Of a stretch of 64,000 nt of DNA, positions 11,997 through 33,915 are shown piece by piece (position 1 is the first letter of the stretch; each line of letters begins with the position of its first letter). Position numbers and translations under genes: made by a program. The stretch is from NCBI GenBank assembly GCA_903940125.1, contig CAJAJL010000107.1:1-64000 (forward strand), read 5' to 3'. The notes beneath the pieces are model-generated. The model did not search any database. It worked only from the letters and a program-made list of their open reading frames with translations, and was not told the DNA's origin. This DNA comes from an uncultured Chlorobiaceae bacterium (GTDB lineage Bacteria > Bacteroidota > Chlorobiia > Chlorobiales > Chlorobiaceae).

Positions 11997-13436
11997 TCAG
12001 ATAAATCTTGATGGTTTCATGCTTGGTGCTGGAATAAAACGGGTTTTATTTATAGCTTGTATTTGCTCTTTTTCAGGTTGAAGCCTTCCTGTTTCAGTAT
12101 TGATGGTAAGTATCTTCGAAGAGTTGAGAAGCATGCCGATCAGGGACCCATTGCAGAGCATATAAACGGGATTGATCATGGCATTCAGTAGATTATCGAT
12201 CATAAAAATACCAAGAAAGGCAGCCATAACAGCGGAGCTGCCCCAAATTTTTGTTTTCCACAGCTCTGGCTTAACGCGCGAAAAAAATAGGAAAAGAGGC
12301 CATTGAATCGCCATAACCATCACGATAAGTCCATATAGTCCGTTTGTGCCATAAGTGATGATCCACAATCCGTCCGTCGTGCTGACATCTTTGCCTTCGT
12401 TATCGTAAACTCTTGAACGGCCATAGCCGCCCCACCCGAAAAAGCTACCTTGCCTTGCTTTTTGGATAAGAATTGTTTCATTATCAAAGCGGAATTGCAG
12501 AGATTGAGAACGATTTGCGCTGAAATTGCCGGATACAGAGTCAGAGAGATTTCGACCATCCCAGTAACCGGTAGTTCTTGTAACAATATAAAGGTAGGGA
12601 ACCAGCATCAGGATTATTAACAGAAAAGCGGTTTTTGTTTTATTTGATATATAGAGAACCAGGAGGCCGATGATAAGCCATGAAACAGCAGCTACCGAGC
12701 GCAACATGATAGTGGTGAAGGTGAGGAGCAAAAGCAGGTAGAGTGATGGTATATGCATGATTTTTTTTGGCAGCACATTACTGACAAGCATCCATATTCC
12801 CAGGAATACGCCAAGAACCATCCACATTGCAGTCATGAGTCCGTGCTCCATATAAACCATCGGTCTGAATCCACCTCCATCTCTGAGTGTCTGAATGAAG
12901 TCACTTTGATGATAACCATAGGTAAGGCGGTGCAATTGCGGGCTCATGATCAATTCATACCAGCAGAACGGAACATAAACAATACTTCCAATGAAAATGG
13001 CAAGAGCGAGTATTTTTGTGGAATCGACATCGTTAAAATAAATTCTGCCAATGAAGTAAGGTATTCCCCATCTAACACTTTGGTACATCGCTTGTGAAAG
13101 TCCGTCATAAGGGCCATCGCCGTTTGCCATTGAGGAAAAAAAAGAAGCTGTACACCATAGAAGCATTGGTATGTCGGCGGCATTAAACTGGAATTTCGAC
13201 AATCGTTCTTTATCGAAGAGATATGCACATGCAAGAACACTAAGGCAAATTGCCGCTGTTTTAGTGTTGCGGAGTAAAAAAATATCGTAGTTGGCTACCG
13301 GTAGAAACATCCATCCCGCAACAAAGGCTATTGCAATTGCCTCATGAGAACCTCTCTTTTTAAAGAGGGTTATGACCCATGCAGGGAAAGCTAAGAGAGC
13401 AATCGGAACAAGGATATTTCCGGGAGCGCTACCCAT
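11997..13436 (-). CDS. O-antigen ligase/polymerase (Wzy-like) membrane protein
   Basis: A 479-residue integral membrane protein with roughly 10-11 hydrophobic segments. Toward the C-terminus it has the pattern seen in Wzy/WaaL proteins: FFGWGGYGRSRVY followed by a STTDGLWIITYGTNGLYG segment, preceding the last helices. Such proteins either polymerise lipid-linked repeat units in the periplasm or ligate polymer to lipid. Next to Wza, a Wzc-like protein and many glycosyltransferases, the polymerase role is the more likely one. The C-terminal 45 residues are hydrophilic and basic. Confidence 0.8.
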   Translation of the reverse strand: MGSAPGNILVPIALLAFPAWVITLFKKRGSHEAIAIAFVAGWMFLPVANYDIFLLRNTKTAAICLSVLACAYLFDKERLSKFQFNAADIPMLLWCTASFFSSMANGDGPYDGLSQAMYQSVRWGIPYFIGRIYFNDVDSTKILALAIFIGSIVYVPFCWYELIMSPQLHRLTYGYHQSDFIQTLRDGGGFRPMVYMEHGLMTAMWMVLGVFLGIWMLVSNVLPKKIMHIPSLYLLLLLTFTTIMLRSVAAVSWLIIGLLVLYISNKTKTAFLLIILMLVPYLYIVTRTTGYWDGRNLSDSVSGNFSANRSQSLQFRFDNETILIQKARQGSFFGWGGYGRSRVYDNEGKDVSTTDGLWIITYGTNGLYGLIVMVMAIQWPLFLFFSRVKPELWKTKIWGSSAVMAAFLGIFMIDNLLNAMINPVYMLCNGSLIGMLLNSSKILTINTETGRLQPEKEQIQAINKTRFIPAPSMKPSRFI

Positions 13437-13963: not shown

Positions 13964-15118
13964 TTATTGTTGTACTGTTTTGTTCCAGATTGACGGATAG
14001 CGTTGTTCTAACAATGTTGCACGTTGTGCGGCAACTCGCCTCCATGTGAACTGCTGTGCTCTTTCTCTGGCACATTGTCCCAGTTCACTCCTTTTTATGT
14101 GGTTTTCCGCCATCAAAGTCATGGCTTGAGCCCAGGCATCAATGTTCATGTCAGGAAGGACAATGCCATTAAGTCCGTTTTGAACGATAGCGCCTCCGCC
14201 CATTGCAGTTACCAGTGGAGGAATTCCGTGTGCCATGGCTTCATAGGTTACCATTGGCCCACCTTCTTCAAGGCTTGGAAAAACAAAGATGTCGGCACTT
14301 CGGTAAAGTTGTCCGATATCTTTGGTGTAAGCAACATGGGTGATGTTTTTTCCTTTATGCAGAAGCGGGCAGTGATCTTGGATTTCAGGAGATATGCTTC
14401 CGCAAAGAACCAGCTCAGCATTGAGGTTTGCGCGATTCCATGCCTCGAGCAGGAGTGGTACTCCTTTTCGCAGACAAAGGGTTCCGGCAAAGAAAAACAC
14501 TGGTTTCGGTTTCACAGTAGCAGGAGAATTTGCATGAGGAAAACGTTCCGGTGCCCAACCATAGCTTGTAGACAAAAGTTTATTTTCAAATACGCCGTTG
14601 TCAGCCATTGAGTGCCGTACCATTGGGCTTGGACAGAACACACTGTCAGCCAATGCAAGTTTGCGTTCTTCTTCAGCGATTGCCTGTTCGGTTATTGTGT
14701 TTTCAACCTCGATATTCCATTGTTCCGATGCCCGCTGAAGAATGTTTCGAGATGTGCGACGATGGCAGTTGATACGTTCAATAATGATTTTAGAACCTCG
14801 CCGGTGAAAAGCTTCAAATATTTCCGGAGAAAGAGCCGCCCATAAATAAACATATGGGGCGTCGCCTTCGGTTTTTAAAAAGAACTGTTCAGTGATGTTT
14901 CGAGGTTGTTGGCTGCTTCCAAACCTGTAGACAAGTCTCTTTTTGATATTGCTCATGACAGGGATCAGCCAAGGATAGTTTATATAATACTCTGTGCTTG
15001 GAACTATAAGCTTTACCGCTTTTCCACTTTCATGCCAGTACTTGCAAAGTGAAAGCGGTACATGGCTGTTGCCAAGGTCTGATGCGGGATACCCGAACAG
15101 AACCGGAAGGTGACTCAT
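13964..15118 (-). CDS. Glycosyltransferase family 4
   Basis: A 384-residue GT-B glycosyltransferase. The donor-binding half contains FFFAGTLCLRKGVPLLLEAW near residue 210 and an EX7E motif in LEEGGPMVTYEAMAHG near residue 287, followed by TAMGGGAIV. The N-terminal half begins with a nucleotide-fold strand (PVLFGYPASD) and has an acceptor domain without clear family marks. The start codon overlaps the stop of the Wzc-like gene by 4 bases (ATGA), so the two are likely translationally coupled. Confidence 0.87.
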   Translation of the reverse strand: MSHLPVLFGYPASDLGNSHVPLSLCKYWHESGKAVKLIVPSTEYYINYPWLIPVMSNIKKRLVYRFGSSQQPRNITEQFFLKTEGDAPYVYLWAALSPEIFEAFHRRGSKIIIERINCHRRTSRNILQRASEQWNIEVENTITEQAIAEEERKLALADSVFCPSPMVRHSMADNGVFENKLLSTSYGWAPERFPHANSPATVKPKPVFFFAGTLCLRKGVPLLLEAWNRANLNAELVLCGSISPEIQDHCPLLHKGKNITHVAYTKDIGQLYRSADIFVFPSLEEGGPMVTYEAMAHGIPPLVTAMGGGAIVQNGLNGIVLPDMNIDAWAQAMTLMAENHIKRSELGQCARERAQQFTWRRVAAQRATLLEQRYPSIWNKTVQQ

Positions 15119-17394
15119 TTCTGCTTCTCCTGTTTCGATGTTTTTTGCTTGTTTTTCAGAGTATTATTGATAAATACCTGTATTTTACTCAATAGTTCCT
15201 TCGCAGCAGGAATATTCTGAATAATTTCTTCAATCTTTTTGGTGTTGATTTTATCAAGAATTTCTGGTTGTTTTTCAAGGAGTTTGTCAATGCTCATACT
15301 CCGTTTGAGACCACCCCAATTGAGGAGAGGTGCAATTGCCGGAACTCTGAGGTGAACGAGAAGCTCAGCCGCTCTCCTCAAATCCCTGAAGTGAGTACTT
15401 TCACCGACAGTTATCAGAACGATGATATCTGCATAGAGAGCAGCGTGTTCAGTCAGGTCGCTTTGCAGGATTGGTGCGCAGTCAATGCAAATGTAGTCAT
15501 ATTCATTTTTTGCAGAATTAAGTAACTCCTTAAGACGATGTTGAGAGATGCTGCCGACTATGCTGTTTCCTGCATACATAATACTGATATTGCACCCCGG
15601 GCTGTCAACTATATAGTTGTTCCATGGTTCTGCTGCGCAAAGAAAATCAGAGAAGCCTGATGGTTCTGTTGGTAAGCATGTAAGTTTGCTGAGAGCCGGG
15701 GTTGAAATATTGCATTCTATCAGAAGCACCTTTGGTGAAAGAGCTGCAAGTGCATGAGATGTGTTCAAGGCAATAGAGCTGCATCCTGAAGCTTTATCGA
15801 CACCAGTGAAAAGGATAATTGAGGCATTGGTTTCCGTTTTTTCACAATTAATTCTGACAGCAAAGCTTCGTATTGTTTTTGCTGTATCATTTTCTGCGGT
15901 TAACGAAATCAGCTGATGAAATGGAATGGTGTCTGTAGATTTAGTAATGATACATGCTGGAGGATAACCGAGGGCCTGTTGGATATCTTTGGCACGACGA
16001 ATACGGTTGTCGAAAAAGTCATAAGCAAAAAATACACCACCTGCCCCTAAAAAAGAGACACTAAAAAAAATAAGGAATAGTTTTTGAACGTTTGATCCTT
16101 CTGCATGATCGGGCATACGTGCAAAAGATTCGATGGATAGGTGTAGTGGGGCTTTGCCTTCAACTTCTAGCTCTTGAATTCTGGTATCAATATGGTCCAG
16201 CAGTTCTCTTTTATGTTTAAGTTCAGCTTCAAGCGATTCTCCTAAATGAATTCCAACTGAAGTTTTTATTGATTCGTCAGAGCTTTTTTTTAATTCTGTG
16301 CTGATTTCTTTTTCTGCGATTTTTGTTCGTTCATTGTCATTGTTTGCTGTTATTAAATCTTTGCTCAGTCCAAAATCACGTATTCCATACAAAATTTTAT
16401 GAGCAGTTTTATTGAGTTCATTCCGTTGTTTTTTTTCATAGTCACGCATTGCATTCATCCTCTCTTCGATATATATCCGGTCGGGATTGTTTTTTGTCAA
16501 TCCATCCGTGGAACTTCTCAACTGTTGCTGTTGCTGGTAAGTCCATGTACTGGTCATGTTAAGAGAGTTATCTTTCATGACCATTTCTTCAACCATCGGT
16601 TCAAGGGTAAGGCTTTTTATCTGGTTAGTTAATTTTACTTTTTCATCTAATTGAGTTTTAGCAGCTATTTGCTCGCCAAGTGCTTGGATGTAGAGTTTCT
16701 GCAGTCCTTCGGTTTTTTTCCCTGATAAGTTGAAGTTTTCCGAAAATGTTGCGGTATTAATATTTTTTGTAAGAATGATCAGTTTATTTTCAATGGTGCT
16801 CACTTCAGTTTTCAAGCTCTGCTTTTTATTTCTCAGGAACACCAGTCGCTCATTGTCGCGCATTTCTGAGTTTTTGCGAACTTTTTCAAGAAACACTTCC
16901 ATGAATTTGTTGACAAGTGGGGCAAGGCCTTCTTTTTTGAGACTTGATGCGGTGATTTCAATAAGGTGCGTTCCGATCAAGGGGTTGGTTTTTATGTTAA
17001 AAGAAAGCATGTTTGCGCATACGTCGGCAGGCATACCTTTTGGAAATAGTGATGCTTTTTCTTTAGGTGTAAGTTTTTCAACAGTTTTTTTCAGGACATC
17101 AAAAGACATCATTCGTTGAGCTTGTGTTCGAGCATAGTCCTGATAATAATTAATGATTTGTGGGTCATCGCTTGAGGTGATCAGCGAAGGCATAACAGGG
17201 TCTACGCGCATGATCGCTTTAACGGCATAATTGGGTTTGCTGATCAAAAGAACGATGGGTACCGTTATGGTGAAAAGAAAAGAGCCGATTACAACAATAA
17301 ACAGCCCATAACGTTTGGCAAAACCTATAAGATCAAGTGGTTTTGATGGTTTACCAAAAGGAAGAGGTTCCCTTATCACATGATCATTAATCAT
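15115..17394 (-). CDS. Wzc/Wzz-like polysaccharide co-polymerase with degenerate BY-kinase domain
   Basis: A 759-residue chain-length/export regulator. A Wzz-type domain is bounded by membrane helices at about 31-52 and 438-458, with a long coiled-coil periplasmic part (residues 180-415). The cytoplasmic part (about 465-720) has the fold of a bacterial tyrosine autokinase but its nucleotide motifs are altered: Walker A reads GVDKASGCSS (531-540) with Cys538 where lysine is required; Walker A' reads LIECNIS (558-564) instead of LIDxDxR; Walker B reads ICIDCAP (636-641). The tail is lysine-rich with no tyrosine cluster. It probably keeps the structural, chain-length role next to Wza but not normal kinase activity. 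Confidence 0.85.
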   Translation of the reverse strand: MINDHVIREPLPFGKPSKPLDLIGFAKRYGLFIVVIGSFLFTITVPIVLLISKPNYAVKAIMRVDPVMPSLITSSDDPQIINYYQDYARTQAQRMMSFDVLKKTVEKLTPKEKASLFPKGMPADVCANMLSFNIKTNPLIGTHLIEITASSLKKEGLAPLVNKFMEVFLEKVRKNSEMRDNERLVFLRNKKQSLKTEVSTIENKLIILTKNINTATFSENFNLSGKKTEGLQKLYIQALGEQIAAKTQLDEKVKLTNQIKSLTLEPMVEEMVMKDNSLNMTSTWTYQQQQQLRSSTDGLTKNNPDRIYIEERMNAMRDYEKKQRNELNKTAHKILYGIRDFGLSKDLITANNDNERTKIAEKEISTELKKSSDESIKTSVGIHLGESLEAELKHKRELLDHIDTRIQELEVEGKAPLHLSIESFARMPDHAEGSNVQKLFLIFFSVSFLGAGGVFFAYDFFDNRIRRAKDIQQALGYPPACIITKSTDTIPFHQLISLTAENDTAKTIRSFAVRINCEKTETNASIILFTGVDKASGCSSIALNTSHALAALSPKVLLIECNISTPALSKLTCLPTEPSGFSDFLCAAEPWNNYIVDSPGCNISIMYAGNSIVGSISQHRLKELLNSAKNEYDYICIDCAPILQSDLTEHAALYADIIVLITVGESTHFRDLRRAAELLVHLRVPAIAPLLNWGGLKRSMSIDKLLEKQPEILDKINTKKIEEIIQNIPAAKELLSKIQVFINNTLKNKQKTSKQEKQK

Positions 17395-21247: not shown

Positions 21248-22468
21248 TTATTGACCGGATGTTCCTGCTGTTCTAGTGTTGCCTGTGGTGGTACTTGTTC
21301 CTGTTGTGATAGTTGATCCTGTGGTGGTAGTGGTATTTACAAATCCAGTTTGACCCCAGAGTTGGCTTCGTAACTTTGCCATTATACCAAATGTTTCCGC
21401 AGTGGTGGTGCCGAGGCTAAGTACATTGAGAGATGGGAGTAGCTTTTCAAGGGTGTAGTTGAATTTTGCCATACCACTTGGACTGATAAAGACAATATCG
21501 TTCGACATAAGCGTAAAGTTCTGGCTGAAATCACCCCGTTCAAGCAGGTTTCTCAGATCGACCTTGATAACATCGCCTTTGAGACTCTGTTGTCTGATAA
21601 CGAATATATTTTCCGGATTAGCCTGCTTGTTCAGTCCTCCTGCCATCATAATTGCTTTTAGGACATTCATCCCGCCTCTCCTCTGAATGGCACCGGGTGT
21701 AACAACTTCGCCCATGACATAAATTAGGTCATCAGTAGCTTCAGGAATGTAGATCACATCATTATTTCTGATGGGGGCGTTCAAAGCCATATTGCCGTTT
21801 TTAAGAAGATCCTGTAAGTCGATCCAGATGACGGTGTCATTACCCCGGATAATCGCACATTTGGTTAGAGAGGCCTCCTTTCCCTGATCAGGAAGGCCGC
21901 CAGCAAGAGCAAGTGCTTCCAGAAGCGTTCCTTTACCCGGAAAATTGATGACACCCGGTTTGCTGACACGGCCGAGAACAAAAGCCTTATTATTATGAAA
22001 TTCATGAACCTTGACTGTAACTTCAGGTTTTATATAGAGGGATTCCAGTTTTGAAGTTATAACTCTCTGTGCTTCTTCTGGAGTATGGTTCATAACGTTG
22101 AGACTTCCGATTCTCGGAATGGCAATAAATCCGTCAGGGGCAACGACAATGTTTTCCTGTGAAAGCTCCGGTCTGTGCCACACCTGAACACTTACAAAAT
22201 CTCCAGGTCCAAGTCGGTATTGGTAGTTGTCATGAGGGGATAAGGCATCAATTTTCTGGGGGGTTGCAAATTCCTGAGTTTTTATTGGGAGCTCGGCCTT
22301 AAAATCTTTTTCTGGGGTTGTGGGAATTCGTGAAGACTTTGGAGAAATGCCGCTGCAGGATGTCAACAAAACACAAATAAAGGTAATTAAAAACATAGCC
22401 GTGGTTTTAACCACGCGGTCATAGTGGGAAATCGGATTATAGGTGATGCATTCAGTAACTCGGTACAT
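21248..22468 (-). CDS. Wza-like polysaccharide export lipoprotein
   Basis: A 406-residue outer-membrane export protein. Starting at the ATG at 22466-22468 gives a signal peptide with hydrophobic core (AMFLITFICVLLTSC) and lipobox cysteine; a longer frame upstream overlaps the acyltransferase gene and is not needed. A polysaccharide-export domain begins at YRLGPGDFVSVQVWHRPEL, followed by two SLBB domains (around FVLGRVSKPGVINFPG and YVMGEVVTPGAIQRRGG). The last 30 residues are an unusual Thr/Gly-rich tail. With the Wzc-like gene it forms the transenvelope export channel of the Wzy-dependent type. Confidence 0.9.
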   Translation of the reverse strand: MYRVTECITYNPISHYDRVVKTTAMFLITFICVLLTSCSGISPKSSRIPTTPEKDFKAELPIKTQEFATPQKIDALSPHDNYQYRLGPGDFVSVQVWHRPELSQENIVVAPDGFIAIPRIGSLNVMNHTPEEAQRVITSKLESLYIKPEVTVKVHEFHNNKAFVLGRVSKPGVINFPGKGTLLEALALAGGLPDQGKEASLTKCAIIRGNDTVIWIDLQDLLKNGNMALNAPIRNNDVIYIPEATDDLIYVMGEVVTPGAIQRRGGMNVLKAIMMAGGLNKQANPENIFVIRQQSLKGDVIKVDLRNLLERGDFSQNFTLMSNDIVFISPSGMAKFNYTLEKLLPSLNVLSLGTTTAETFGIMAKLRSQLWGQTGFVNTTTTTGSTITTGTSTTTGNTRTAGTSGQ

Positions 22469-22481
22469 GTTATCAAATTCT

Positions 22482-23009
22482 TTAATCTGTTTTTTGAGTA
22501 CTTTTTTTTGCAATAATTTTAGCCGGAATGCCCACGGCAATGGAGTTGTCGGGTACTGGTGACAGGACAACAGCATTTGCCCCGATATCGACATTATTAC
22601 CGATAGTGATATTTCCAAGGATTTTTGCCCCAGCTCCGATGTTGACATTGTTCCCGAAACTTGGGGCGGCTTTTTCTGTAATATTTTTCAGTCCTATGGT
22701 AACGCCGTTGCGGATAATGCAGTTATCGCCGAAACTTGCATACCCGCTTATGATGATATCGCCGAAATGGTCGATACGGAAGTTTCTGCCAACTGGAACT
22801 TCACAGGGGAGTTCGATACCTGTGAGTATCTGGACAATCTTGTAAAGTAGTTTATAGAGCAGTGAAAAAGGTTTACGGATTATGCCGTTTCTGATAGTGT
22901 ACCGCCATCTTCCAAAACGGTAAACGATCATGACCCAGAATCCCTGGCTGTCCCATTTGCCTTCATAGGTTACAAGATCAGCTCGTATGTTTTGGAAGAA
23001 ATTCATCAT
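22482..23009 (-). CDS. Serine acetyltransferase-like hexapeptide transferase
   Basis: A 175-residue acyltransferase of the serine O-acetyltransferase group. It begins with an alpha-helical segment (residues 1-70), then VGRNFRIDHFGDIIISGYA, where the His-containing loop corresponds to the catalytic region, and regular hexapeptides (NVNIGAGAKILGNITIG) closing with the NSIAVGIPAKI cap. It probably acetylates a sugar in the polysaccharide rather than making cysteine, given the context. It starts 3 bases after the GT2 gene and ends 13 bases before the Wza start. Confidence 0.83.
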   Translation of the reverse strand: MMNFFQNIRADLVTYEGKWDSQGFWVMIVYRFGRWRYTIRNGIIRKPFSLLYKLLYKIVQILTGIELPCEVPVGRNFRIDHFGDIIISGYASFGDNCIIRNGVTIGLKNITEKAAPSFGNNVNIGAGAKILGNITIGNNVDIGANAVVLSPVPDNSIAVGIPAKIIAKKSTQKTD

Positions 23010-23012
23010 GCA

Positions 23013-23987
23013 TTACCAAGGGGTTGGAGGTGAAATGCTGCCGAATTTTGTATCCTGAAGTGACTTGACTAATTGTTTGATGACCGAAACTGCTGCCAGG
23101 CGTTTGTTTTTTGCTTCACCAAATGGCAGAAGCAGGTTTTTTATATATCGGGCTGCATACCAGAGCAGTTCAACGCCAGCACTTGAAAGAAGGAGAGCGA
23201 GTCCCTTGTTTTTACGGTAATAGAGCCATTCGCTTCTCATTCTAAAAATAAGTACTTGAGATGCTTTGTTGTCAAATGTTTTGTCTTTTCTTGTTTTGCT
23301 GCTGGCACCGCCAATGTGCATGACTTCGGCATCTGGAATGAAATAAATTTTCCAACCGGCTTTTTTGGCTCTCATGCAGAGATCGGTTTCTTCATAATAG
23401 ATATAAAACCTTTCATCGAATGTACCTATTTCATCAAGCATCTTTTTGCGAACAATGGTGAAGGTGCCCGGTACCCAGTCTACCTCCATTGGTTGATCAT
23501 GAGCAAAACCACCGAATTCATGGTAGTTGATTATCGGTGATTGAGGAAACTTACCCCGTAATCCCGACAAAGTGAGAAGTTTTGAAAGAGCTGAGGGGAA
23601 TCTTCTTGCAGAGGGTTCGAGACTACCTGCAGGAGAAATAATTTTTCCGCCACAGAAACCGCATTGAGGCATTCTATCCATAAATGCTATGCAGTGTTCT
23701 ATAGATAGCGGCTTTATATAGGCATCAGGGTTTAAAAGAAAAATATAGCTGCCTTGCGCGAGAACAAAGGCCTGGTTGTTTGCCGCGGCAAAACCAAGGT
23801 TTTGATGGTTTGCAATCAGGCGGACGGAAGGAAAGTCATTTTTTACCATATCTGCAGAACTGTCATAGGAATTGTTGTCTACGACAAAGACTTCGATAGT
23901 AATCCCTTTACTGTTCTCAAAGAGTGCCTGAAGACAGTTACGAAGAATTTCACGTGTGTTGTAGCTTACAATAACAACGGATACCAT
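23013..23987 (-). CDS. Rhamnosyltransferase-like glycosyltransferase family 2
   Basis: A 324-residue GT2 enzyme of the WbbL/rhamnosyltransferase type. It starts VSVVIVSYNTREILRNCL, has FVVDNNSYDSS near residue 34 and the metal-binding NPDAYIKP near residue 85, then the PG.F..VR.......GxFDExFYIYYEETDLC segment (VPGTFTIVRKKML; IGTFDERFYIYYEETDLC) near 160-190, which holds the catalytic base. A typical role is adding rhamnose to an undecaprenyl-linked GlcNAc early in repeat-unit assembly. It follows the RsbW-like gene by 24 bases in the same operon. Confidence 0.87.
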   Translation of the reverse strand: MVSVVIVSYNTREILRNCLQALFENSKGITIEVFVVDNNSYDSSADMVKNDFPSVRLIANHQNLGFAAANNQAFVLAQGSYIFLLNPDAYIKPLSIEHCIAFMDRMPQCGFCGGKIISPAGSLEPSARRFPSALSKLLTLSGLRGKFPQSPIINYHEFGGFAHDQPMEVDWVPGTFTIVRKKMLDEIGTFDERFYIYYEETDLCMRAKKAGWKIYFIPDAEVMHIGGASSKTRKDKTFDNKASQVLIFRMRSEWLYYRKNKGLALLLSSAGVELLWYAARYIKNLLLPFGEAKNKRLAAVSVIKQLVKSLQDTKFGSISPPTPW

Positions 23988-24011: not shown

Positions 24012-24449
24012 TTACGGGTTGTGGTTCTGAGTACAATCAGCTTGCTTTGTCATTGAAATTCGGTTGGTACCCTCTTCCCTCGTATAGGAGATGGAGTCCA
24101 TGAGTTGACGGATAAGTAAAAGACCATATCCATTTTCAGGATAAGTTGAAAAATCGGGTAAAGGGGTATCAGGGTTGAATGGGGAGTTGGTATCGCTGAC
24201 GCTGACTGTAAGCTTGTCATTGTCGGAGTCAAAGCTTATGGTGATTGTTTTGTCCTGTTCAGGGTGTTCCGCATAACGGACTGAGTTAGTAAAAGCTTCA
24301 CTGACGGAAAGCTCAAATGCATCACAGAATCCTGCGTCACTCTGCGAAGGATTGAGAGAGTCGATAAAAATCTCTGCCACCTTTAATGCTACGAGCGAAG
24401 CAAGCCTTACGAAACGAATCTCGGCAGGCAGTGTGATCATAGTGATCAT
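24012..24449 (-). CDS. RsbW-like serine/threonine kinase (anti-sigma/partner-switch ATPase)
   Basis: A 145-residue HATPase_c protein of the RsbW/SpoIIAB class, which phosphorylates a STAS antagonist and binds a second partner. The N-box EAFTNSVRYAEHPE (residues about 51-64) and the G2 box NGYGLLLIRQL (about 117-127) are present. The G1 box, normally DxGxGF, reads DTNSPFN, so its first glycines are missing; nucleotide binding may be altered. The start overlaps the stop of the STAS gene (ATGA), as expected for a kinase and its STAS substrate. No sigma factor is in the window, so the final target is unknown. Confidence 0.83.
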   Translation of the reverse strand: MITMITLPAEIRFVRLASLVALKVAEIFIDSLNPSQSDAGFCDAFELSVSEAFTNSVRYAEHPEQDKTITISFDSDNDKLTVSVSDTNSPFNPDTPLPDFSTYPENGYGLLLIRQLMDSISYTREEGTNRISMTKQADCTQNHNP

Positions 24450-24793
24450 AAGCTGGTATGTTTTTTTTCTGCATTTATTGTTGCAGCTTCAACATCGTCA
24501 TAAATATCAAACAGCTTGTATACTTGGGTAATTTCAAACACTTCCCTGACTTTGTTGTTCATGCAGGCTAATATTACATCTCCCCCCTGAGCTCTTTTTA
24601 CTCGGGCGATGCTGACTATTGCACCAAGACCGCTGCTGTCGAGAAAATCAACTTCCGAAAGATTTATAACAACAGAGGTTGTTGACGCTGCTGCCGATTT
24701 AAATTGCTTCAACTGCAGGGCATTCCTTGCATCAAGGGTGCCTTGAAGGGCGATGACCGTGATGTTGTTAAAGGTATTTTCGCTGATAATCAT
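24446..24793 (-). CDS. STAS domain anti-sigma factor antagonist
   Basis: A 115-residue single-domain STAS protein (SpoIIAA/RsbV-like). VVINLSEVDFLDSSGLGAIVS (split here as VVINLSEVDF and LDSSGLGAIVS, residues 46-66) contains the conserved phosphorylatable serine in DSSGLG. Such a protein cycles between phosphorylation by an RsbW-like kinase and dephosphorylation by a SpoIIE/PP2C phosphatase. Its gene overlaps the RsbW-like gene downstream by 4 bases and the fusion protein gene upstream by 4 bases, so all three are tightly coupled. SpoIIE-type phosphatases are encoded about 4-9 kb upstream. Confidence 0.9.
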   Translation of the reverse strand: MIISENTFNNITVIALQGTLDARNALQLKQFKSAAASTTSVVINLSEVDFLDSSGLGAIVSIARVKRAQGGDVILACMNNKVREVFEITQVYKLFDIYDDVEAATINAEKKHTSL

Positions 24794-26190
24794 GGGTGCG
24801 TATTTGTTTCATGAATTCTATTTAAGAGTGCTTTTATTGTCAGGGCGATATCCTTCATGGGATTGCCGTGAGCGGCATAATACCGTTCAATGATTGCGGT
24901 ATCGCCCGGGTTGACTGGCCACTCTTCGGTTTCAGCATAACTGAATACAGCGGCACGGTACCATGATTTCGTTTTACTGTATTCAGTTATGCTGGAAGGG
25001 GTTGCCACAACCGGCCAACTTCCGATAATGGCAAGCTGCCCGATGAGTACCCTGAAAAGCAGGGTGAAGCGGTCAAGAGAGAGTGCAGATGCAAGGGTGC
25101 TGAAAGGCCCTGTTCGTTCAATTGTTGTTGTTGTCAGTATCAGGTATTTTTCTGAGACTGCAGTGAAGTAGGAATTTGTGCTTTTCTTCCATTTTCCCTG
25201 GAGGATCAGGATTGGGGTGAGAAGCAGAAAAGGAATAAGTTGCAGGGTGATAAGGAGTATCGCGGCGAGTCTGTGTACAATTGATTGAAACAGTGACTTT
25301 GCCGATCCTGATTGATGTATACCCGTTAAGAGATGCGGGTCATCCATTGCAATTGAAATACCGCTTTCCGGCTCAATCAGAATATTTCCAGAGGCTATTT
25401 TGTTTTGAACTTCAAGGTGTTCCCCGATGTATGTATTTTCAAGGACAATACTGCCAATGACCGAGCTCTCCCTGTCGATAATGACATTGCTGCCAATAAC
25501 AGCTTTTGGCCCGATGATTGAGTCTGCAAGTATCTGGACATTATTGCCAATAATGACCGGTTTTCTTATTTCAGCACTTTTGCTTATGACCACGTTTCTG
25601 CCAATATGGCAGTAAGCTTCATTGCTGTAGCCAGGAAGAACGTATGGAGATGATATGTCGTTCAGAATTTCCATGCAGAGCCGATAATAAACATCAATCG
25701 AGTCAAATCCGAGAAGGGATAAAGGAATATTTCCCATATCATGTTGTGTTTCAGTCCGGCTTCCTCTTAATCTGAGAGATCCTCTGTTGGAACTGAGGAT
25801 TTCACCATCAGGTAACGATGCGAAAATTGTTTTGTAGTTATACTGTTTATCGTACTGGATAAAAACAAATCCACTGATGATCAGGATTCTATCCTCTGAA
25901 CAGAAGCGTTGGTTTTTGTCAATGACCGTTTGCAGATCATCAGTGTTCTTGATACTGGCATAGCTTATAGGAATACCCCACCGGTTGCCATTTTCACAGT
26001 AGCGTTCAACATCGCTGAGTGGTCCGTCCATGACAAGCCTGATAGCTTCACTGCCTGCGAGGATCGAAAAGTCAATAAGAAATTCAGCAAAGGGTTTGTT
26101 GCATATCGGGACAAGTAACGGGTGAATGCCTGGGAAAAAATGGTCTAACCATTCATAGTCCTGCTCTCTTATGATAATAAGTGTTTTCAT
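24790..26190 (-). CDS. Degenerate nucleotidyltransferase/left-handed beta-helix/sugar-transferase fusion
   Basis: A 466-residue protein of three parts. Residues 1-170 resemble a sugar-phosphate nucleotidyltransferase (PLLVPICNKPFAEFLIDF matches the PL.p..nKP.l.y motif) but the GxGTRL signature loop is absent. Residues 185-270 form hexapeptide repeats (CHIGRNVVISKSAEI, VIIGNNVQI). After a hydrophobic segment (310-335), residues 360-460 track the C-terminus of WbaP-type sugar transferases: SLDRFTLL where the active enzyme has SIDELPQL, and IIGSWPV where it has LVGPRPP. The catalytic Glu of the Asp-Glu dyad is Arg here. It is therefore likely a scaffold or regulator rather than an enzyme; it sits between two STAS genes. 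Confidence 0.7.
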   Translation of the reverse strand: MKTLIIIREQDYEWLDHFFPGIHPLLVPICNKPFAEFLIDFSILAGSEAIRLVMDGPLSDVERYCENGNRWGIPISYASIKNTDDLQTVIDKNQRFCSEDRILIISGFVFIQYDKQYNYKTIFASLPDGEILSSNRGSLRLRGSRTETQHDMGNIPLSLLGFDSIDVYYRLCMEILNDISSPYVLPGYSNEAYCHIGRNVVISKSAEIRKPVIIGNNVQILADSIIGPKAVIGSNVIIDRESSVIGSIVLENTYIGEHLEVQNKIASGNILIEPESGISIAMDDPHLLTGIHQSGSAKSLFQSIVHRLAAILLITLQLIPFLLLTPILILQGKWKKSTNSYFTAVSEKYLILTTTTIERTGPFSTLASALSLDRFTLLFRVLIGQLAIIGSWPVVATPSSITEYSKTKSWYRAAVFSYAETEEWPVNPGDTAIIERYYAAHGNPMKDIALTIKALLNRIHETNTHP

Positions 26191-26201
26191 GGAACCCTGC
26201 C

Positions 26202-26555
26202 TTATTCCGTACCGTTTGTTTCAAATGATTGTATTGCACTGCCGGTATCGGGAAACATTGAAAAGAGCTTTTTAGCTTTAGTAATTTCAAAAACCATAGA
26301 GACTTTGGGACTGAGATTAGCCAGTTTCAGATCACCGTTGTGTTCAATTGCATTTCGCAGGCAGGAGACGATGGCGCCAAGTCCGCTGCTGTCTATAAAG
26401 TCAAGCCTGGCGCAGTCAAATACAAATAAGCTGGTTTGCTGCTGCCAGAGAGCGAATGATGTTATCAGTTCACTGGAGTTCTTGGAATCAATCCTTCCAA
26501 TTAATGCGGCTATGCCAAGTTTTTTTCCTGTTGAAGTGTCAATGTGAAAAGTCAT
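26202..26555 (-). CDS. STAS domain protein (second copy)
   Basis: A 117-residue STAS protein, paralogous in fold to the other STAS gene in this operon. FVFDCARLDFIDSSGLGAIVS-like core (FIDSSGLGAIVS, residues 53-64) has the conserved serine. It is more divergent in the N-terminal strand (FHIDTSTGKKLGIAALIGRI). It lies between the initiating sugar transferase gene (12 bases upstream) and the fusion gene (11 bases downstream). Two STAS proteins with one RsbW-like kinase suggests either two substrates for one kinase or one acting directly on polysaccharide synthesis, as SypA does in Vibrio fischeri. Confidence 0.88.
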   Translation of the reverse strand: MTFHIDTSTGKKLGIAALIGRIDSKNSSELITSFALWQQQTSLFVFDCARLDFIDSSGLGAIVSCLRNAIEHNGDLKLANLSPKVSMVFEITKAKKLFSMFPDTGSAIQSFETNGTE

Positions 26556-26567
26556 ATTTGTTCTTGG

Positions 26568-27287
26568 TTAATAAGCTCCTCTTCCTGTCAGAACAGCGGG
26601 AATGGTTTTTAAAAGCAGAATAATATCATTCAGAAAACTTGCACTTTGAATATACTGCATGTCGAGTCTGACCTGGTCAGTAAATGGAATATCGCTTCTG
26701 CCACTAACCTGCCAAAGGCAGGTTATGCCGGGTATGACATGAAGCCTCTTGCGCTCTTCAAGAGTGTATTCTCCAACTTCAAGCGGTAAAGGAGGTCGCG
26801 GCCCTACAAGACTCATATCGCCTTTAAGTACATTGATAAGTTGAGGTAGTTCATCTATACTGAATTTGCGGATAATTCTTCCAACCTTCGTTATCCGAGG
26901 GTCCTTTTTCATTTTAAAAATTACGCCTGATGCAGATTCATTATAAGCAGCAAGTTCCTGTTTGATTTTTTCTGCATTGACAACCATGGAACGGAATTTA
27001 TAAAATTTGAAATGCCTCCCGTTCAGGCCTACCCGTATTTGCGTATAGAAAATTGGCCCTGGGTTTTCAACCCAGATGGCAATAGCTGTCAAAATAAGAA
27101 GAGGCAGCAGCATAATCAATGCGAGGCCGGACACGGCAGTATCTAGGAGCCTTTTTAACAGGTAGGAAAACATGATTGTCGTTTCCCATGCTGTGACTTT
27201 AAGGCGCCGTCGGTATCGAAACCGGGGATTGATCGAACTGCTTATTGAGCGAATAAGCTCTTTTCGCACCCTTGGATCAAGTTCCAT
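26568..27287 (-). CDS. Undecaprenyl-phosphate sugar phosphotransferase (WbaP/WcaJ C-terminal type)
   Basis: A 239-residue initiating phosphoglycosyltransferase that moves a sugar-1-phosphate onto undecaprenyl phosphate. It has the re-entrant membrane helix (about residues 39-70), KFYKFRSMVVNAE, the catalytic Asp-Glu in FSIDELPQLINVLKGDMSLVG-type segment (here IDELPQ), VGPRPP, and the C-terminal WQVSGRSDIPF and LDMQYI blocks. The start at the ATG at 27285-27287 is preferred because the longer frame runs back into the WecG gene, whose stop is 4 bases away. It lacks the N-terminal membrane half of full-length WbaP, like PglC-type minimal enzymes. Confidence 0.9.
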   Translation of the reverse strand: MELDPRVRKELIRSISSSINPRFRYRRRLKVTAWETTIMFSYLLKRLLDTAVSGLALIMLLPLLILTAIAIWVENPGPIFYTQIRVGLNGRHFKFYKFRSMVVNAEKIKQELAAYNESASGVIFKMKKDPRITKVGRIIRKFSIDELPQLINVLKGDMSLVGPRPPLPLEVGEYTLEERKRLHVIPGITCLWQVSGRSDIPFTDQVRLDMQYIQSASFLNDIILLLKTIPAVLTGRGAY

Positions 27288-27291
27288 GTGG

Positions 27292-28050
27292 TTACTTATT
27301 ATCCGCCTGATTGAAAATCTCTTTAAGTGCCAAAGGTATAAAACGACTATCTCGTAGTAAATAACGCTTCCAAAGCCGGCCTGGTTCGCTCGCCAATCTC
27401 CATACCCATTCAAATCCAATGTTTTGAATCCAGAGAGGCGCGCGTTTTATTGTCCCTGCGGCAAAATCAAAAGATGCACCGACGCAAAGAACGGGTCCTA
27501 CTTTAAGGCGATGAATGTGGGCGTCTGCCCATTTTTCTTGTTTTGGTGCACCAACACCGATAAAAAGAATATCAACATTTCGTGAATTTATGTCGTCAAT
27601 GATAAGTTCTGTTTCAGTTGGATTATGTTCAAATCCAAAAGGAGGACACCATGTTCCGACTATATTCAATCCATCGTATTGTTGACGCAGTTTATGAGCA
27701 GCCAAATCTGCAATGCCGGGGTTGCCACCCATAAAATACAGATTGAGACCGGTTCCTGCAGATTTTTTACAGAGCGCTATCAGCAAATCAGAGCCTGCAA
27801 CCCTTTCAGGAAGGGGGTTTGCATTCACGAATCGGCTGAGCCAGACAATAGGCATTCCATCAGCGAAACGAAAAAGAGCTTCCTGATATATTCTTCGCAT
27901 TTCAGCATCATCCTGAAGCATAACGATATGGTCAACATTGGGAGTGACAATAATTCCCTTTTGACCTTGTCTTGCAGCATCAAGGATCTGAGATACAGCT
28001 GAAGACATCGTTGCCTGCTCAAAAGAAACCCCTAAAAGTTGAGTTTTCAT
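27292..28050 (-). CDS. WecG/TagA/CpsF family glycosyltransferase
   Basis: A 252-residue GT26 enzyme that transfers N-acetylmannosamine or a related sugar to a lipid-linked acceptor. Family marks are TPNVDHIVMLQDD near residue 36, FADGMPIVWLSRF near 67, VAGSDLL near 84, YFMGGNPGIA near 103, and FIGVGAPKQEKWA near 163. The C-terminal APLWIQNIGFEWVWRLASEP is also conserved. It is the first gene of the main minus-strand operon, followed after 4 bases by the initiating transferase. The 145 bases upstream hold the likely promoter; an AGAGG ribosome-binding sequence lies about 12 bases before the ATG. Confidence 0.9.
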   Translation of the reverse strand: MKTQLLGVSFEQATMSSAVSQILDAARQGQKGIIVTPNVDHIVMLQDDAEMRRIYQEALFRFADGMPIVWLSRFVNANPLPERVAGSDLLIALCKKSAGTGLNLYFMGGNPGIADLAAHKLRQQYDGLNIVGTWCPPFGFEHNPTETELIIDDINSRNVDILFIGVGAPKQEKWADAHIHRLKVGPVLCVGASFDFAAGTIKRAPLWIQNIGFEWVWRLASEPGRLWKRYLLRDSRFIPLALKEIFNQADNK

Positions 28051-28195: not shown

Positions 28196-29845
28196 TTACT
28201 TCTGTTTTGTTTCGGCAGACCCGATACGGATAATTATACAGGAGAGATCATCATCGAAGATGTCCCTGCCGGAAAACAATGAAATGGCCTTTTTGATTTG
28301 TTCTATTATAGCATCTGGAGGTAACTCATGGTGTTTTTCAATGAGATTGACAAGTCGTTCATCACCGAACATTGTATTGTCAGGTGAACAGGACTCCGTT
28401 AGGCCGTCCGAAAAGAGGACGAGAATATCCTTGTCACAGATCGGATAGGAAACTGTTTGGTACTCTTGATGTTCAATCAGTCCGATGGGAAGGTTTTCGC
28501 CCTTGAGCATAGAGCAGGTTGCAGTATCGGCATGGAAGTGAATGATCGGGGGGTGACCGCAGTCAACTAATGAAAGCTGCCCTGACTCAAGGTCAAGACG
28601 CACAAAGAGCAGTGTTGCAAAGGTACCAAGCTCAATCAGTTCCTTGATGCAAAGTTCATGTACTCCTGCAACAATATCCTGCAGTGCAGGAAGTTCGGTA
28701 CAAGAGTATTTTTTTTGTGCAAGTACCTTCAGAAAGAGTGATTTAATGCCGGCTCCTATCAAGGCAGGGTGTAGTCCGTGCCCCATAACATCCCCGATAA
28801 GTATGTCTGCGTGACGGCTGTCAAAAATGATAAAATCGGTAAAATCACCATCAAGATGACCTGAAGGCACCATCATCCGTCCGATTGAAACTCCCTGCAA
28901 GGTTTCCGGGATGGGGCTCTGGAGCAGCTTTTTTTCAATCTCAGATTCAAACTCCTTCTGCAGGTTGTCGAATCGCAGTCTGCTTTGTTCTTCTTCTACT
29001 CGTGAAGTGATATTTCGCGCAATGATAACTGTGTGTGGCGTGTCATCAATCTGAACGCATCCCCTTGATATCTCGAGGGGAACAGAAGTGCCGTTTTTTC
29101 TTATTCCTTCAATTTGTTGTACCATGCGTTCATCAAAATCAGAGATATTTCCGGAAGGCATGTTGCACAAAAAATAAATATCAAACTTCGGAGAGTCAGG
29201 TGAAATCAGTTCCAGAAAATTCTGTTCATGGTATGTGTCGCGGCTGAATCCGAACAGGTTTTCTGCCGCTGTGTTTCGGTAGATGATGTTTCCCTCATTG
29301 TTGAGCATGAAGACGGCATCATGTGCAGCATCAGTCATTGAGCGGAATTCCTCCTCGCTCCGCTGCAATTTTTTTGCCATGACACTGAGGGTTTCATTTG
29401 CTGTGGTCAGCTCCTGATTTTTAACTGAAAGTTCCTTAAAAAGTTTTTCCCGTTCCGTTTTCAAGCAATAATAGTCAATTGCATCATTCAGTATTTTTTT
29501 AAAAGCGATTGGATCAACTGGTTTTGGAATAAATCGGAAAACCTCGCCACTATTGATGGACTCAATAATCGGGTCGATATCCTGAGAACCGCTGAGAATA
29601 AGTCTTACAATGTCCGGATTTCGCTTTTTAACTTCACCGATCAATTCAAGACCGCTCATTTCCGGCATTCGAAGGTCTGAAACAATTATGGAAACACTGT
29701 TTTTTTCAATAAGCTCGAGTGCGTTCAGGCCATTTTCGGCAAAGAGTCTGTTGTAGACCTCTTTGCGTAGAAATCTGTTTATTGAACTGAGAATGTCTGG
29801 TTCGTCATCCACAAAAAGGATGGTAATCTTGCTATCGGTTGTCAT
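28196..29845 (-). CDS. Response regulator with PAS and SpoIIE-type PP2C phosphatase domains (A)
   Basis: A 549-residue signalling protein. Residues 1-125 form a receiver domain with the acidic pocket in ILFVDDEPDI, the phospho-acceptor Asp in VSDLRMPEMSG and the lysine in FIPKPVDP. A short coiled coil (about 130-170) and a PAS domain (175-300) follow, then a PP2C/SpoIIE phosphatase (about 330-545) with GHLDGDFTDF, IGDVMGHGLHPAL and LVLFSDGLTE, which carry the metal-binding aspartates. The ATG at 29843-29845 overlaps the histidine kinase stop (ATGA) and gives a normal N-terminus. Phosphorylation would set its activity on a phosphorylated STAS protein. Confidence 0.9.
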   Translation of the reverse strand: MTTDSKITILFVDDEPDILSSINRFLRKEVYNRLFAENGLNALELIEKNSVSIIVSDLRMPEMSGLELIGEVKKRNPDIVRLILSGSQDIDPIIESINSGEVFRFIPKPVDPIAFKKILNDAIDYYCLKTEREKLFKELSVKNQELTTANETLSVMAKKLQRSEEEFRSMTDAAHDAVFMLNNEGNIIYRNTAAENLFGFSRDTYHEQNFLELISPDSPKFDIYFLCNMPSGNISDFDERMVQQIEGIRKNGTSVPLEISRGCVQIDDTPHTVIIARNITSRVEEEQSRLRFDNLQKEFESEIEKKLLQSPIPETLQGVSIGRMMVPSGHLDGDFTDFIIFDSRHADILIGDVMGHGLHPALIGAGIKSLFLKVLAQKKYSCTELPALQDIVAGVHELCIKELIELGTFATLLFVRLDLESGQLSLVDCGHPPIIHFHADTATCSMLKGENLPIGLIEHQEYQTVSYPICDKDILVLFSDGLTESCSPDNTMFGDERLVNLIEKHHELPPDAIIEQIKKAISLFSGRDIFDDDLSCIIIRIGSAETKQK

Positions 29846-31887
29846 GGTTGGTTTATTGCTTTGTTTTGCTTGATAGGAAGCATTATGGTAAAAACAGTAC
29901 CGCCCTCCTTCGGACAATGAACGCTGAGCCTTCCGTTATGCTTGTTGACAATGATGTCATAGGAGATGCTGAGTCCAAGTCCAGTTCCTTGTCCAGGACT
30001 TTTAGTGGTAAAAAAAGGTTCGAAAATGTGTTCCTGGATTTCAGGCGGAATACCTGGTCCATCATCAGCAATGGAACAAAAGACATAGCAGCTGTCTTTC
30101 CAGGTATTGATGACAATATTACCGTTCGAAGTTTTCATTTGCGAAACTATGGCATGTGCACTGTTGATAATCAGGTTCAGAATCACCTGATTAAGTTGCT
30201 CCGGATTGCATGGAACAAGCGGCAGCTCCTTAAGGTTGGTTTCAATATCAGCACAATAACGGTATTCATTTCGAGCAATGATCAGCGTGTCACGGATTCC
30301 TTTGTTAATATCGAAAAGAACCTTCTCCTCAAAAGCGTGCTTGTAAGCGAAGTTCCGCATGCTGTTGATAATTGTTGTGATTCGTTCGAACCCGCGTTGT
30401 GACTCGGTAAAAATTTTTGGAAGATCATCAAGCAAGGTATTGAGGTTAAGGTCGTGTTCTAGTTGTGTCAGCTTAAGCAGTTCTTTATGAAACAAAGTTT
30501 CGTTATCAATTTTTTTTATGAAGTTGCGGTACTCATGAAGGATAATCAGCAGATCTGAAATGTTTTCCTCCTGAGTTGCGAAATTGATCTTTATAAAATT
30601 AAGGGGATTATTAATTTCGTGTGCGATACCGGCAGCAAGTTGACCGATTGATGCAAGCTTTTCCTGTTGTATAATTTGCTGCTGGCTTATTGCAAGATCT
30701 TTTGTTCGTTCATCTACCCTTTGCTCCAGTGTCTTGTTAAGCTCCTGCAGTTTTGCTTCAGCCTCTTTGCGTTCGCTGATGTCGAGTACAATTCCCCGGA
30801 TGCCGATAAGCTTTCCGTTCTCGACAATCCGTGATGTGTAAACAAGTATAGGAAATGAAGTGCCATCTTTTTTCAGGCCGGTGTATTCGTGATTATCAAA
30901 CGGCAGGTTTTTTAAGCGTTGCTGCATGTTGAACTGCACCTTTTCGCGATCTTGAGGTGCAAAAAGCTGAATGCTGGAAACCCCTTTTTGTAAATTTTCT
31001 TTTGTGTACCCGAAAGTTTCAAAACCCATGCGGTTAGTGAAGGTAATCATGCCTTGCATATCCATTTCAAAAATGGTCTGCGGAAGAAGATCAGCCAGGT
31101 CATGAAACCTCATTTGGCTCGCAGCAAGTTCGGTCTGTTTCTTTTTATTCTCCGTTATATCCTGTTTGATGCCAATAAAATGAGAAATTTTGTTATTGAT
31201 ACCGGTGATCGGGCTGATAGTAGAGAGTTCCCAGAAAAGCTCTCCTTTTTTATTTTTATTTATTAATTCTCCCTTCCAAATATGGCCCGATCGTATGGTT
31301 TTCCAGAGGTTTTTATAAAAAGCTGGTGAATGTTTTCCAGATTTCAGAACACTCGGGGTTTTGCCGATGACTTCTTTTTCAGTATATCCTGAAATAGAGG
31401 TGAATGCCGGGTTGATATATTTTACAATTCCATTGATGTCAGTTATAACAATAGATAATGGATTTTGAGAGATAGCAGAGGAAAAAAGTTTGAAGTTTTT
31501 CCGGAGTTCCGATTCCGCTAACACATTCTTTATCGTAACGGCCAGCTTATCAGGATTTACAGGTTTTATTAAAAAGTCGTAAGCACCCATTTTAAGAGAT
31601 TCGACTGCCTGCTCAATATCATTGGAACCGGAAATCATGATGACTGGAATACTGAAATGATGATCACGAAGATAGGAAAGAACTTCCATGCCATTTTTTC
31701 CACTCATATTGATATCGAGAAGCAGAAGATCGATCCGATGAGCGTTTATGATCTCTATGCAGGCATTTCCATCAGAGGCCATCATGAAATTTTGCCCCAG
31801 CTTTTTGACAATACTTGATAAAAGGGTACGTATTATCTTGCTGTCATCAACGACAAGGATAGTAGCTTTCTCTTCAGGGTCATGCAT
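29842..31887 (-). CDS. Hybrid sensor histidine kinase: receiver, PAS domains, HisKA, HATPase
   Basis: A 681-residue kinase. A receiver domain comes first ([12 protein letters not shown]; acceptor Asp in [20 protein letters not shown]), then PAS/PAC units at about 130-255 and 265-385, the second with an [13 protein letters not shown] linker into a coiled coil. The phospho-acceptor His lies in [17 protein letters not shown] near residue 430; the ATPase domain has the N-box [28 protein letters not shown] and GTGLGLSIS. An N-terminal receiver on a kinase suggests it is itself controlled by another kinase. It is translationally coupled to the phosphatase regulator downstream and probably phosphorylates it and its paralogue. 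Confidence 0.92.
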
Positions 31888-33657: not shown

Positions 33658-33915
33658 AAAGGGGGCTATATGATTAAAATTGCTTATGTTGCGCCAGGAA
33701 AAAACCACAAGGATATAATTTTCAGAGAGATCCCCTGCAGTTTTCAATCTGATTTCATCTCATAATCAGGCTTTCACTCCTTTTGTCATTCAGAATTACG
33801 AAGCATACCATAACGGAAAATAAGTCATATTTAACTTTATAACAGTTTTTTTTATAGGCTTTTGACCCAAGTTTGCTGATGGGGTGGTTTTAGTTGGCAC
33901 TCTCAGGGGAATAAA

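Follow-up and report, generated by a model that had tools for sequence, protein, structure and literature searches.

A predicted tyrosine pseudokinase fused to a polysaccharide co-polymerase in green sulfur bacteria

Results and discussion

Layout and homology of the co-polymerase

We analyzed a stretch of 64,000 nucleotides (hereafter the window) from an uncultured Chlorobiaceae bacterium, corresponding to positions 1 to 64,000 of contig CAJAJL010000107.1 in assembly GCA_903940125.1. The gene of interest lies on the reverse strand at 15115-17394 and encodes a polysaccharide co-polymerase (PCP) of the PCP-2 type, to which a domain related to the bacterial tyrosine kinases (BY-kinases) is fused. 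A preliminary description of this DNA had read the product as a Wzc-like protein with a kinase-like domain that lacks the Walker A lysine; its strand, its length (759 amino acids) and its homology to BY-kinases were all borne out. The protein is divided as follows (pLDDT, predicted local distance difference test):

15115-17394, reverse strand: PCP-2-type co-polymerase with fused, predicted BY-pseudokinase domain, 759 amino acids
17242-17331, reverse strand: transmembrane helix 1, residues 22-51 (AlphaFold2 model)
16126-17235, reverse strand: periplasmic domain, residues 54-423, with long helices at 180-212, 223-261 and 304-414 (AlphaFold2 model)
16012-16089, reverse strand: transmembrane helix 2, residues 436-461; the PCP-type linker FFDNRIRRAKDI comes next (AlphaFold2 model)
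15304-15909, reverse strand: BY-kinase-like (Rossmann-like) domain, residues 496-697 (Pfam, NCBIfam, profile search, AlphaFold2)
15859-15879, reverse strand: K-T-I-R-S-F-A at residues 506-512, where the EX2RX2R ring-interface motif has been lost
15778-15804, reverse strand: Walker A, residues 531-539, with Cys538 (codon TGC at 15781-15783)
15709-15729, reverse strand: Walker A', residues 556-562, VLLIECN (E560-C561-N562 at 15717-15709)
15481-15495, reverse strand: Walker B, residues 634-638, YICID, with Asp638 kept
15121-15204, reverse strand: lysine-rich C-terminal helix, residues 731-758, in the place of the tyrosine tail (AlphaFold2, low pLDDT of about 47-59)

In the AlphaFold2 model two transmembrane helices flank a large helical periplasmic domain (including a helix of more than 100 residues) and are followed by a cytoplasmic C-terminal domain, which is the layout of the PCP-2a class. 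The linker FFDNRIRRAKDIQQALGYPP, found between the helix at 436-461 and the Rossmann-like domain, is typical of PCP-2 proteins as well. The full-length model has a mean pLDDT of 81, with the blocks of the kinase-like domain mostly at 80-94.

A profile of ten orthologues, searched against the PDB, ranks CapB (7e-18), VpsO, Wzc (3e-16), BceF and Etk above MinD/ParA, and the NCBIfam BY-kinase model TIGR01007 matches 38/38 family members. For the window protein itself the NCBIfam BY-kinase models match below their cut-off and Pfam yields only a marginal AAA_31 match. The Pfam Wzz model (PF02706) gave no match at an E-value of 1 for the window protein and none at 0.01 for the 38 members, while the chain-length models of the PCP proteins match part of the family (TIGR03007 and TIGR01006 16/38 each, TIGR03017 8/38). 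Because the orthologue profile ranks BY-kinases first and PCP models match some of the members, we regard the homology of the cytoplasmic domain to BY-kinases as firm. Assignment to the MinD/ParA ATPases was considered and rejected: BY-kinase models and structures outscore them, and neither lysine of KGGxGK[ST] is conserved.

Loss of the catalytic motifs is family-wide

The preliminary description had noted a cysteine for the Walker A lysine, Glu-Cys-Asn for Asp-x-Asp in Walker A' and a missing C-terminal tyrosine cluster. All three can be read directly: the Walker A region is TGVDKASGCSS (Cys538, codon TGC, 15783-15781), Walker A' has E560-C561-N562, and there are 0 tyrosines in the last 63 residues. 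Asp638 of Walker B, on which that description is silent, is retained. To see how far these losses extend, we compared 39 non-redundant kinase-like domains of the family (duplicates removed) with a reference set of 21 canonical BY-kinases, of which the same order supplied 15 and other members of the phylum 6.

The Walker A lysine is found in 0/39 family domains against 21/21 canonical kinases; in 15 of the latter it is present by construction, as they were chosen for GxGK[ST], and the six unfiltered ones also have it. A search for relatives with a canonical GKSS, which would mean a strain-specific loss, thus came up empty. A mutation of this strain or an assembly error was rejected on the same count of 0/39 distinct relatives, which include the isolates Chlorobaculum thiosulfatiphilum DSM 249 and Chlorobium sp. 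N1. The lysine is absent in 39/39, but the GCSS form is restricted to one sub-group. The site varies freely among small residues (S in 12 members, C in 10, A in 8, T in 6, N in 2 and V in 1), and we rejected a function of a conserved cysteine on that ground.

Other motifs of the kinase are affected to different degrees. The glutamate of EX2RX2R is retained in 0/39 domains (21/21 canonical) and its second arginine in 0/39 (20/21), while the tail holds 0-2 tyrosines in the family against 2-15 in the canonical kinases. Walker A' is lost in part of the family only, the first aspartate being present in 16/39 (glutamate in the other 23) and the second in 18/39, against 21/21 for both in canonical kinases. 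The P-loop glycine, the P-loop serine or threonine and the Walker B aspartate are kept in 39/39 members and 21/21 canonical kinases alike. Two residues are nearly fixed and specific to the family, Cys636 and Asn692 (each 38/39).

Residue 636 (15487-15489, reverse strand) lies in the Walker B strand, and its cysteine is missing from the canonical kinases compared. On plasmids we looked for further fused relatives without the lysine; the five plasmid-borne PCP-2a proteins examined (from Vibrio, Mesorhizobium, Rhizobium etli, Azospirillum and Isosphaeraceae) all have GEGK[ST].

The retained residues raise the question whether the domain could still be catalytic, as a kinase or NTPase whose active site is unusual and uses either a relocated lysine or none. 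Invariance of the P-loop glycine, the serine/threonine and the Walker B aspartate speaks for this, as does the CapA1B2(K55M) protein, which still binds ADP-Mg without the lysine (PMC3795738). However, within residues 496-697 of the family alignment no substitute lysine or arginine reaches at least 90% conservation, and no lysine in the loop preceding the P-loop glycine is conserved across the family; a relocated (WNK-like) lysine was rejected for the sampled family on this basis. Moreover, the tyrosine tail is absent, most members have lost the Walker A' aspartate pair, and in Wzc mutation of K540 abolishes phosphorylation (PMC8285477). Overall, we consider an active enzyme unlikely.

Distribution and phylogeny of the family

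Relatives were sought in the genus, in the phylum and in named genome contigs. Full-length relatives occur in 27 of the 65 genomes of the genus and in 11 genomes from another genus in the family, with Chlorobaculum among the named records. Four metagenome-assembled genomes (MAGs), labelled Desulfobacterales, Rhodospirillaceae, Desulfopila and Rikenella, also hold members. In the tree the pseudokinases form one clade with 100/100 support on a long stem. From this, together with a lysine count of 0/39, we therefore read the loss of the lysine as old and fixed and the decay of Walker A' as lineage-specific.

The members from the MAGs (L116, L123, L129 and L130) make up a single sub-clade, and two of them have much of the gene order seen in the window; either horizontal transfer or wrong labels or binning would account for this. 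One genome (G073) carries two copies of the co-polymerase (L095 on C108 and L083 on C171). In the L095 copy Walker A' is shortened by three residues, and two tandem Wzy-like genes lie at its locus (L101).

The kinase-like domain is under purifying selection

We calculated the ratio of non-synonymous to synonymous substitutions (dN/dS) from 45 close pairs, which are not independent of each other. The median is 0.21 for the kinase-like domain, whose values run from about 0.06 to 0.42, and 0.115 for the periplasmic domain. It might be argued that the domain is a decaying relic, non-functional baggage on a working co-polymerase, given that its ratio exceeds that of the periplasmic domain and reaches 0.42 in the Chlorobaculum group. 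Nonetheless, dN/dS is well under 1 in all 45 pairs and tightest, at 0.06-0.09, in one Chlorobium lineage; the domain is also intact in every full-length member across 38-80% identity, and Cys636 and Asn692 are nearly fixed in it. These observations make a relic improbable and indicate that the domain is kept under purifying selection. Combined with the family-wide loss of the lysine, EX2RX2R and the tyrosine tail and the partial loss of DxD, this supports the earlier designation as a pseudo-tyrosine-kinase.

Canonical kinases and phosphatases in the same genomes

A canonical BY-kinase accompanies the pseudokinase in 18/27 genomes, the source genome included, so that one could imagine the pseudokinase being phosphorylated or activated in trans, within a hetero-oligomer. 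However, in the other 9/27 genomes, 7 of which are at least 92% complete, no canonical BY-kinase scores above the TIGR01007 cut-off, and the association between the two kinds of protein is not significant (p = 0.13). Because of these nine genomes a catalytic partner in trans seems unneeded. With the tyrosine tail to be phosphorylated missing and the EX2RX2R interface lost, activation by a canonical kinase is very unlikely. No low-molecular-weight tyrosine phosphatase gene was found on the contig of the co-polymerase, though such genes occur in nearly all genomes surveyed; this is weak evidence as the phosphatase family also covers arsenate reductases.

A probable scaffold as the best explanation

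Current models hold that PCP-2 machines require cycles of tyrosine phosphorylation to polymerize and export polysaccharide. Wzc alternates between an octamer and a phosphorylated monomer, and its K540M variant, altered at the residue equivalent to the lost lysine, shows no phosphorylation and stable octamers (PMC8285477). In CapB half of the octamer interface comes from the EX2RX2R motif and half from the Y-cluster (PMC3795738). We consider it probable that tyrosine is not phosphorylated in the fused protein, that its domain acts as a scaffold and that the assembly and disassembly cycle is driven otherwise. In this scenario the change from BY-kinase to pseudokinase in a Wzx/Wzy-type PCP-2 co-polymerase would predate the divergence of the family. 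On the cytoplasmic side of the membrane the domain would hold or order the co-polymerase assembly, probably through contacts between proteins, to which bound nucleotide-Mg perhaps still contributes. Some other driver would replace tyrosine phosphorylation in the cycle known from Wzc. A scaffold has been proposed for EcpK, and HfsB has likewise been proposed to serve a phosphorylation-independent PCP-2 (PMC12004946).

Several observations weigh against this explanation. As the Walker B aspartate and the P-loop serine/threonine are invariant, the lack of any nucleotide role would be odd, and about 40-46% of the members keep one or the other Walker A' aspartate. The loss of EX2RX2R suggests that the protein does without the canonical ring interface, the ring itself being assumed, and the predicted template modelling score (pTM) of the full-length AlphaFold2 model is only 0.48. 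Loss of the lysine alone, judging from CapA1B2(K55M), is no proof of lost nucleotide binding. Since that variant retains ADP-Mg, and the serine/threonine and Walker B aspartate are conserved here, the nucleotide may be bound without being used.

A family in which lysine, tyrosine tail and ring motif are all missing would be natural evidence that a PCP-2 machine can run without tyrosine phosphorylation, and in some genomes the pseudokinase is the only BY-kinase-like co-polymerase detected.

Polysaccharide cluster and partner-switching module

The co-polymerase gene lies in a Wzx/Wzy-type polysaccharide cluster, of which the following genes are of importance here:

11997-13436, reverse strand: multi-pass membrane protein without a Pfam match, probably the Wzy polymerase to judge by position and hydrophobicity
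21248-22648, reverse strand: outer-membrane polysaccharide export (OPX) protein (Pfam Poly_export and SLBB; TIGR03027 at 167 bits, just below cut-off)
24012-24449, reverse strand: RsbW-like serine kinase, N-box EAFTN intact (PF13581, 8.4e-23)
24446-24793, reverse strand: STAS protein 2, DSSG site (PF01740, 4.7e-20)
24790-26190, reverse strand: degenerate nucleotidyltransferase/hexapeptide/sugar-transferase protein, between the two STAS genes
26202-26555, reverse strand: STAS protein 1, DSSG site in FIDSSGL (PF01740, 9e-15)
26568-27419, reverse strand: phosphoglycosyl transferase that would start repeat-unit synthesis, DE dyad intact (PF02397, 2.5e-66)
28196-29917, reverse strand: response regulator with PAS and SpoIIE-type (PP2C) phosphatase domains (PF07228, 4.3e-40)
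31948-33747, reverse strand: second response regulator with PAS and SpoIIE-type phosphatase domains (PF07228, 4e-38)

The cluster also encodes a WecG/TagA transferase, glycosyl and acetyl transferases and an MsbA/PglK-like ABC transporter, and its gene order is kept from Chlorobium to the Desulfobacterales MAG. A hybrid histidine kinase gene lies upstream of the co-polymerase gene too, alongside those for the STAS proteins, the RsbW-like kinase and the response regulators.

The protein at 24790-26190 combines hexapeptide repeats with a nucleotidyltransferase-like N-terminus without GxGTRL and a C-terminus that reads as a degenerate sugar transferase. Phosphoglycosyl transferases use the DE dyad in catalysis; it is missing in 35/35 aligned rows of the degenerate protein (mostly DR) and kept in 29/29 rows of the bona fide transferase at 26568-27419. 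By its motifs, the degenerate protein is apparently a second pseudoenzyme of the cluster.

The preliminary description had proposed that the polymer-length switch must work otherwise than by autophosphorylation, perhaps through the partner-switching proteins of the operon. Here a serine-based partner switch would replace the tyrosine switch: the RsbW-like kinase and the SpoIIE-type phosphatases would set the phosphorylation of the two STAS proteins, one of which would bind the pseudokinase domain or its neighbor and thereby gate assembly. This reading extends the scaffold explanation rather than opposing it. An RsbW orthologue is present in 27/27 genomes with the co-polymerase against 1/38 without it (Fisher 2e-17), and the degenerate sugar transferase in 27/27 against 0/38 (Fisher 7e-19), both tests ignoring shared descent. 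Such strict co-occurrence makes the module a concrete candidate for substitute control. STAS and RsbW genes accompany 29 of the 30 loci with enough upstream DNA, in two of them farther upstream. At the exception, G024, the cluster is split, leaving an RsbW remnant at the locus, but a different contig carries the complete module. Near the canonical BY-kinase loci of the genus no STAS/RsbW genes were seen (0/15 in the stretch read, a few contigs being short). In the module the DSSG sites and the active residues and N-boxes of the RsbW proteins are intact, and in Vibrio SypA/SypE controls polysaccharide below the level of transcription (PMC10120452).

On the other hand, the co-occurrence largely amounts to the inheritance of one gene cluster, with few independent events, and genome G021 holds a PP2C-STAS-RsbW set without the co-polymerase. 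The gene order (STAS 1, which sits upstream of the degenerate sugar transferase and is conserved in the family, then that transferase, STAS 2 and RsbW) points to the sugar transferase at least as much as to the co-polymerase; the former may be an equally good or better target of the module. What remains of the original proposal is therefore circumstantial support for a switch, with a coupling to the co-polymerase that we can only infer. We regard such a partner switch as possible, but tentatively so. A more far-reaching version, in which tyrosine phosphorylation is wholly replaced and two STAS proteins and the RsbW-like kinase, fed by the response-regulator phosphatases, gate both the pseudokinase co-polymerase and the pseudo-glycosyltransferase (two dead enzymes as receivers), is rather doubtful.

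The set in G021 (L170, contig C23, 9.2-11.8 kb) consists of a PP2C response regulator, STAS and RsbW, and lacks the degenerate sugar transferase as well.

Comparison with known systems

BY pseudokinases, both stand-alone and fused, have been described before, and the green sulfur bacterial family is another such family. The closest known cases are EcpK/EpsV of Myxococcus xanthus and HfsB/HfsA of Caulobacter crescentus, in which a stand-alone BY pseudokinase is paired with a kinase-less PCP-2 protein (PMC12004946). EcpK and HfsB share with the Chlorobiaceae protein a BY-kinase fold lacking the catalytic residues and the tyrosine tail, as well as an exopolysaccharide context of the Wzx/Wzy type; the lysine-rich C-terminal helix is common to EcpK. 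Unlike the bipartite EcpK/EpsV system, pseudokinase and co-polymerase form one chain of 759 amino acids here, and whereas EcpK is described as being without any Walker motif, the present protein keeps the P-loop glycine and serine and the Walker B aspartate. The phosphorylation-independent PCP-2 class of EcpK and HfsB would thus be extended to green sulfur bacteria.

The same one-polypeptide layout is reported for the fused PCP-2 pseudokinases SMc01795, BCETI_6000729, Mlr8439 and VV1_2305 (Cuthbertson et al., as cited in PMC12004946), which come from different phyla. Wzc of Escherichia coli (PCP-2a) and CapAB of Staphylococcus aureus (PCP-2b) have an active BY-kinase; overall architecture and kinase-domain homology are common to them and the Chlorobiaceae family, but the latter has lost the catalytic lysine, EX2RX2R and the tyrosine tail, and in part of its members DxD. 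SypA/SypE of Vibrio fischeri (PMC10120452) resembles the neighboring module only, as a STAS protein with an RsbW-like kinase and a PP2C phosphatase at a polysaccharide locus; SypE is one three-domain protein, whereas in Chlorobiaceae kinase and phosphatases are separate. In the open-access literature we found no paper on a pseudokinase co-polymerase family in green sulfur bacteria, and the family is apparently new to the literature.

For several enzymes of the present cluster, at 26568-28050 and 22482-23987 (reverse strand), the best NCBIfam matches include, below their cut-offs, the models EpsZ, EpsA, EpsC and EpsD of the M. xanthus exopolysaccharide pathway, to which EcpK belongs.

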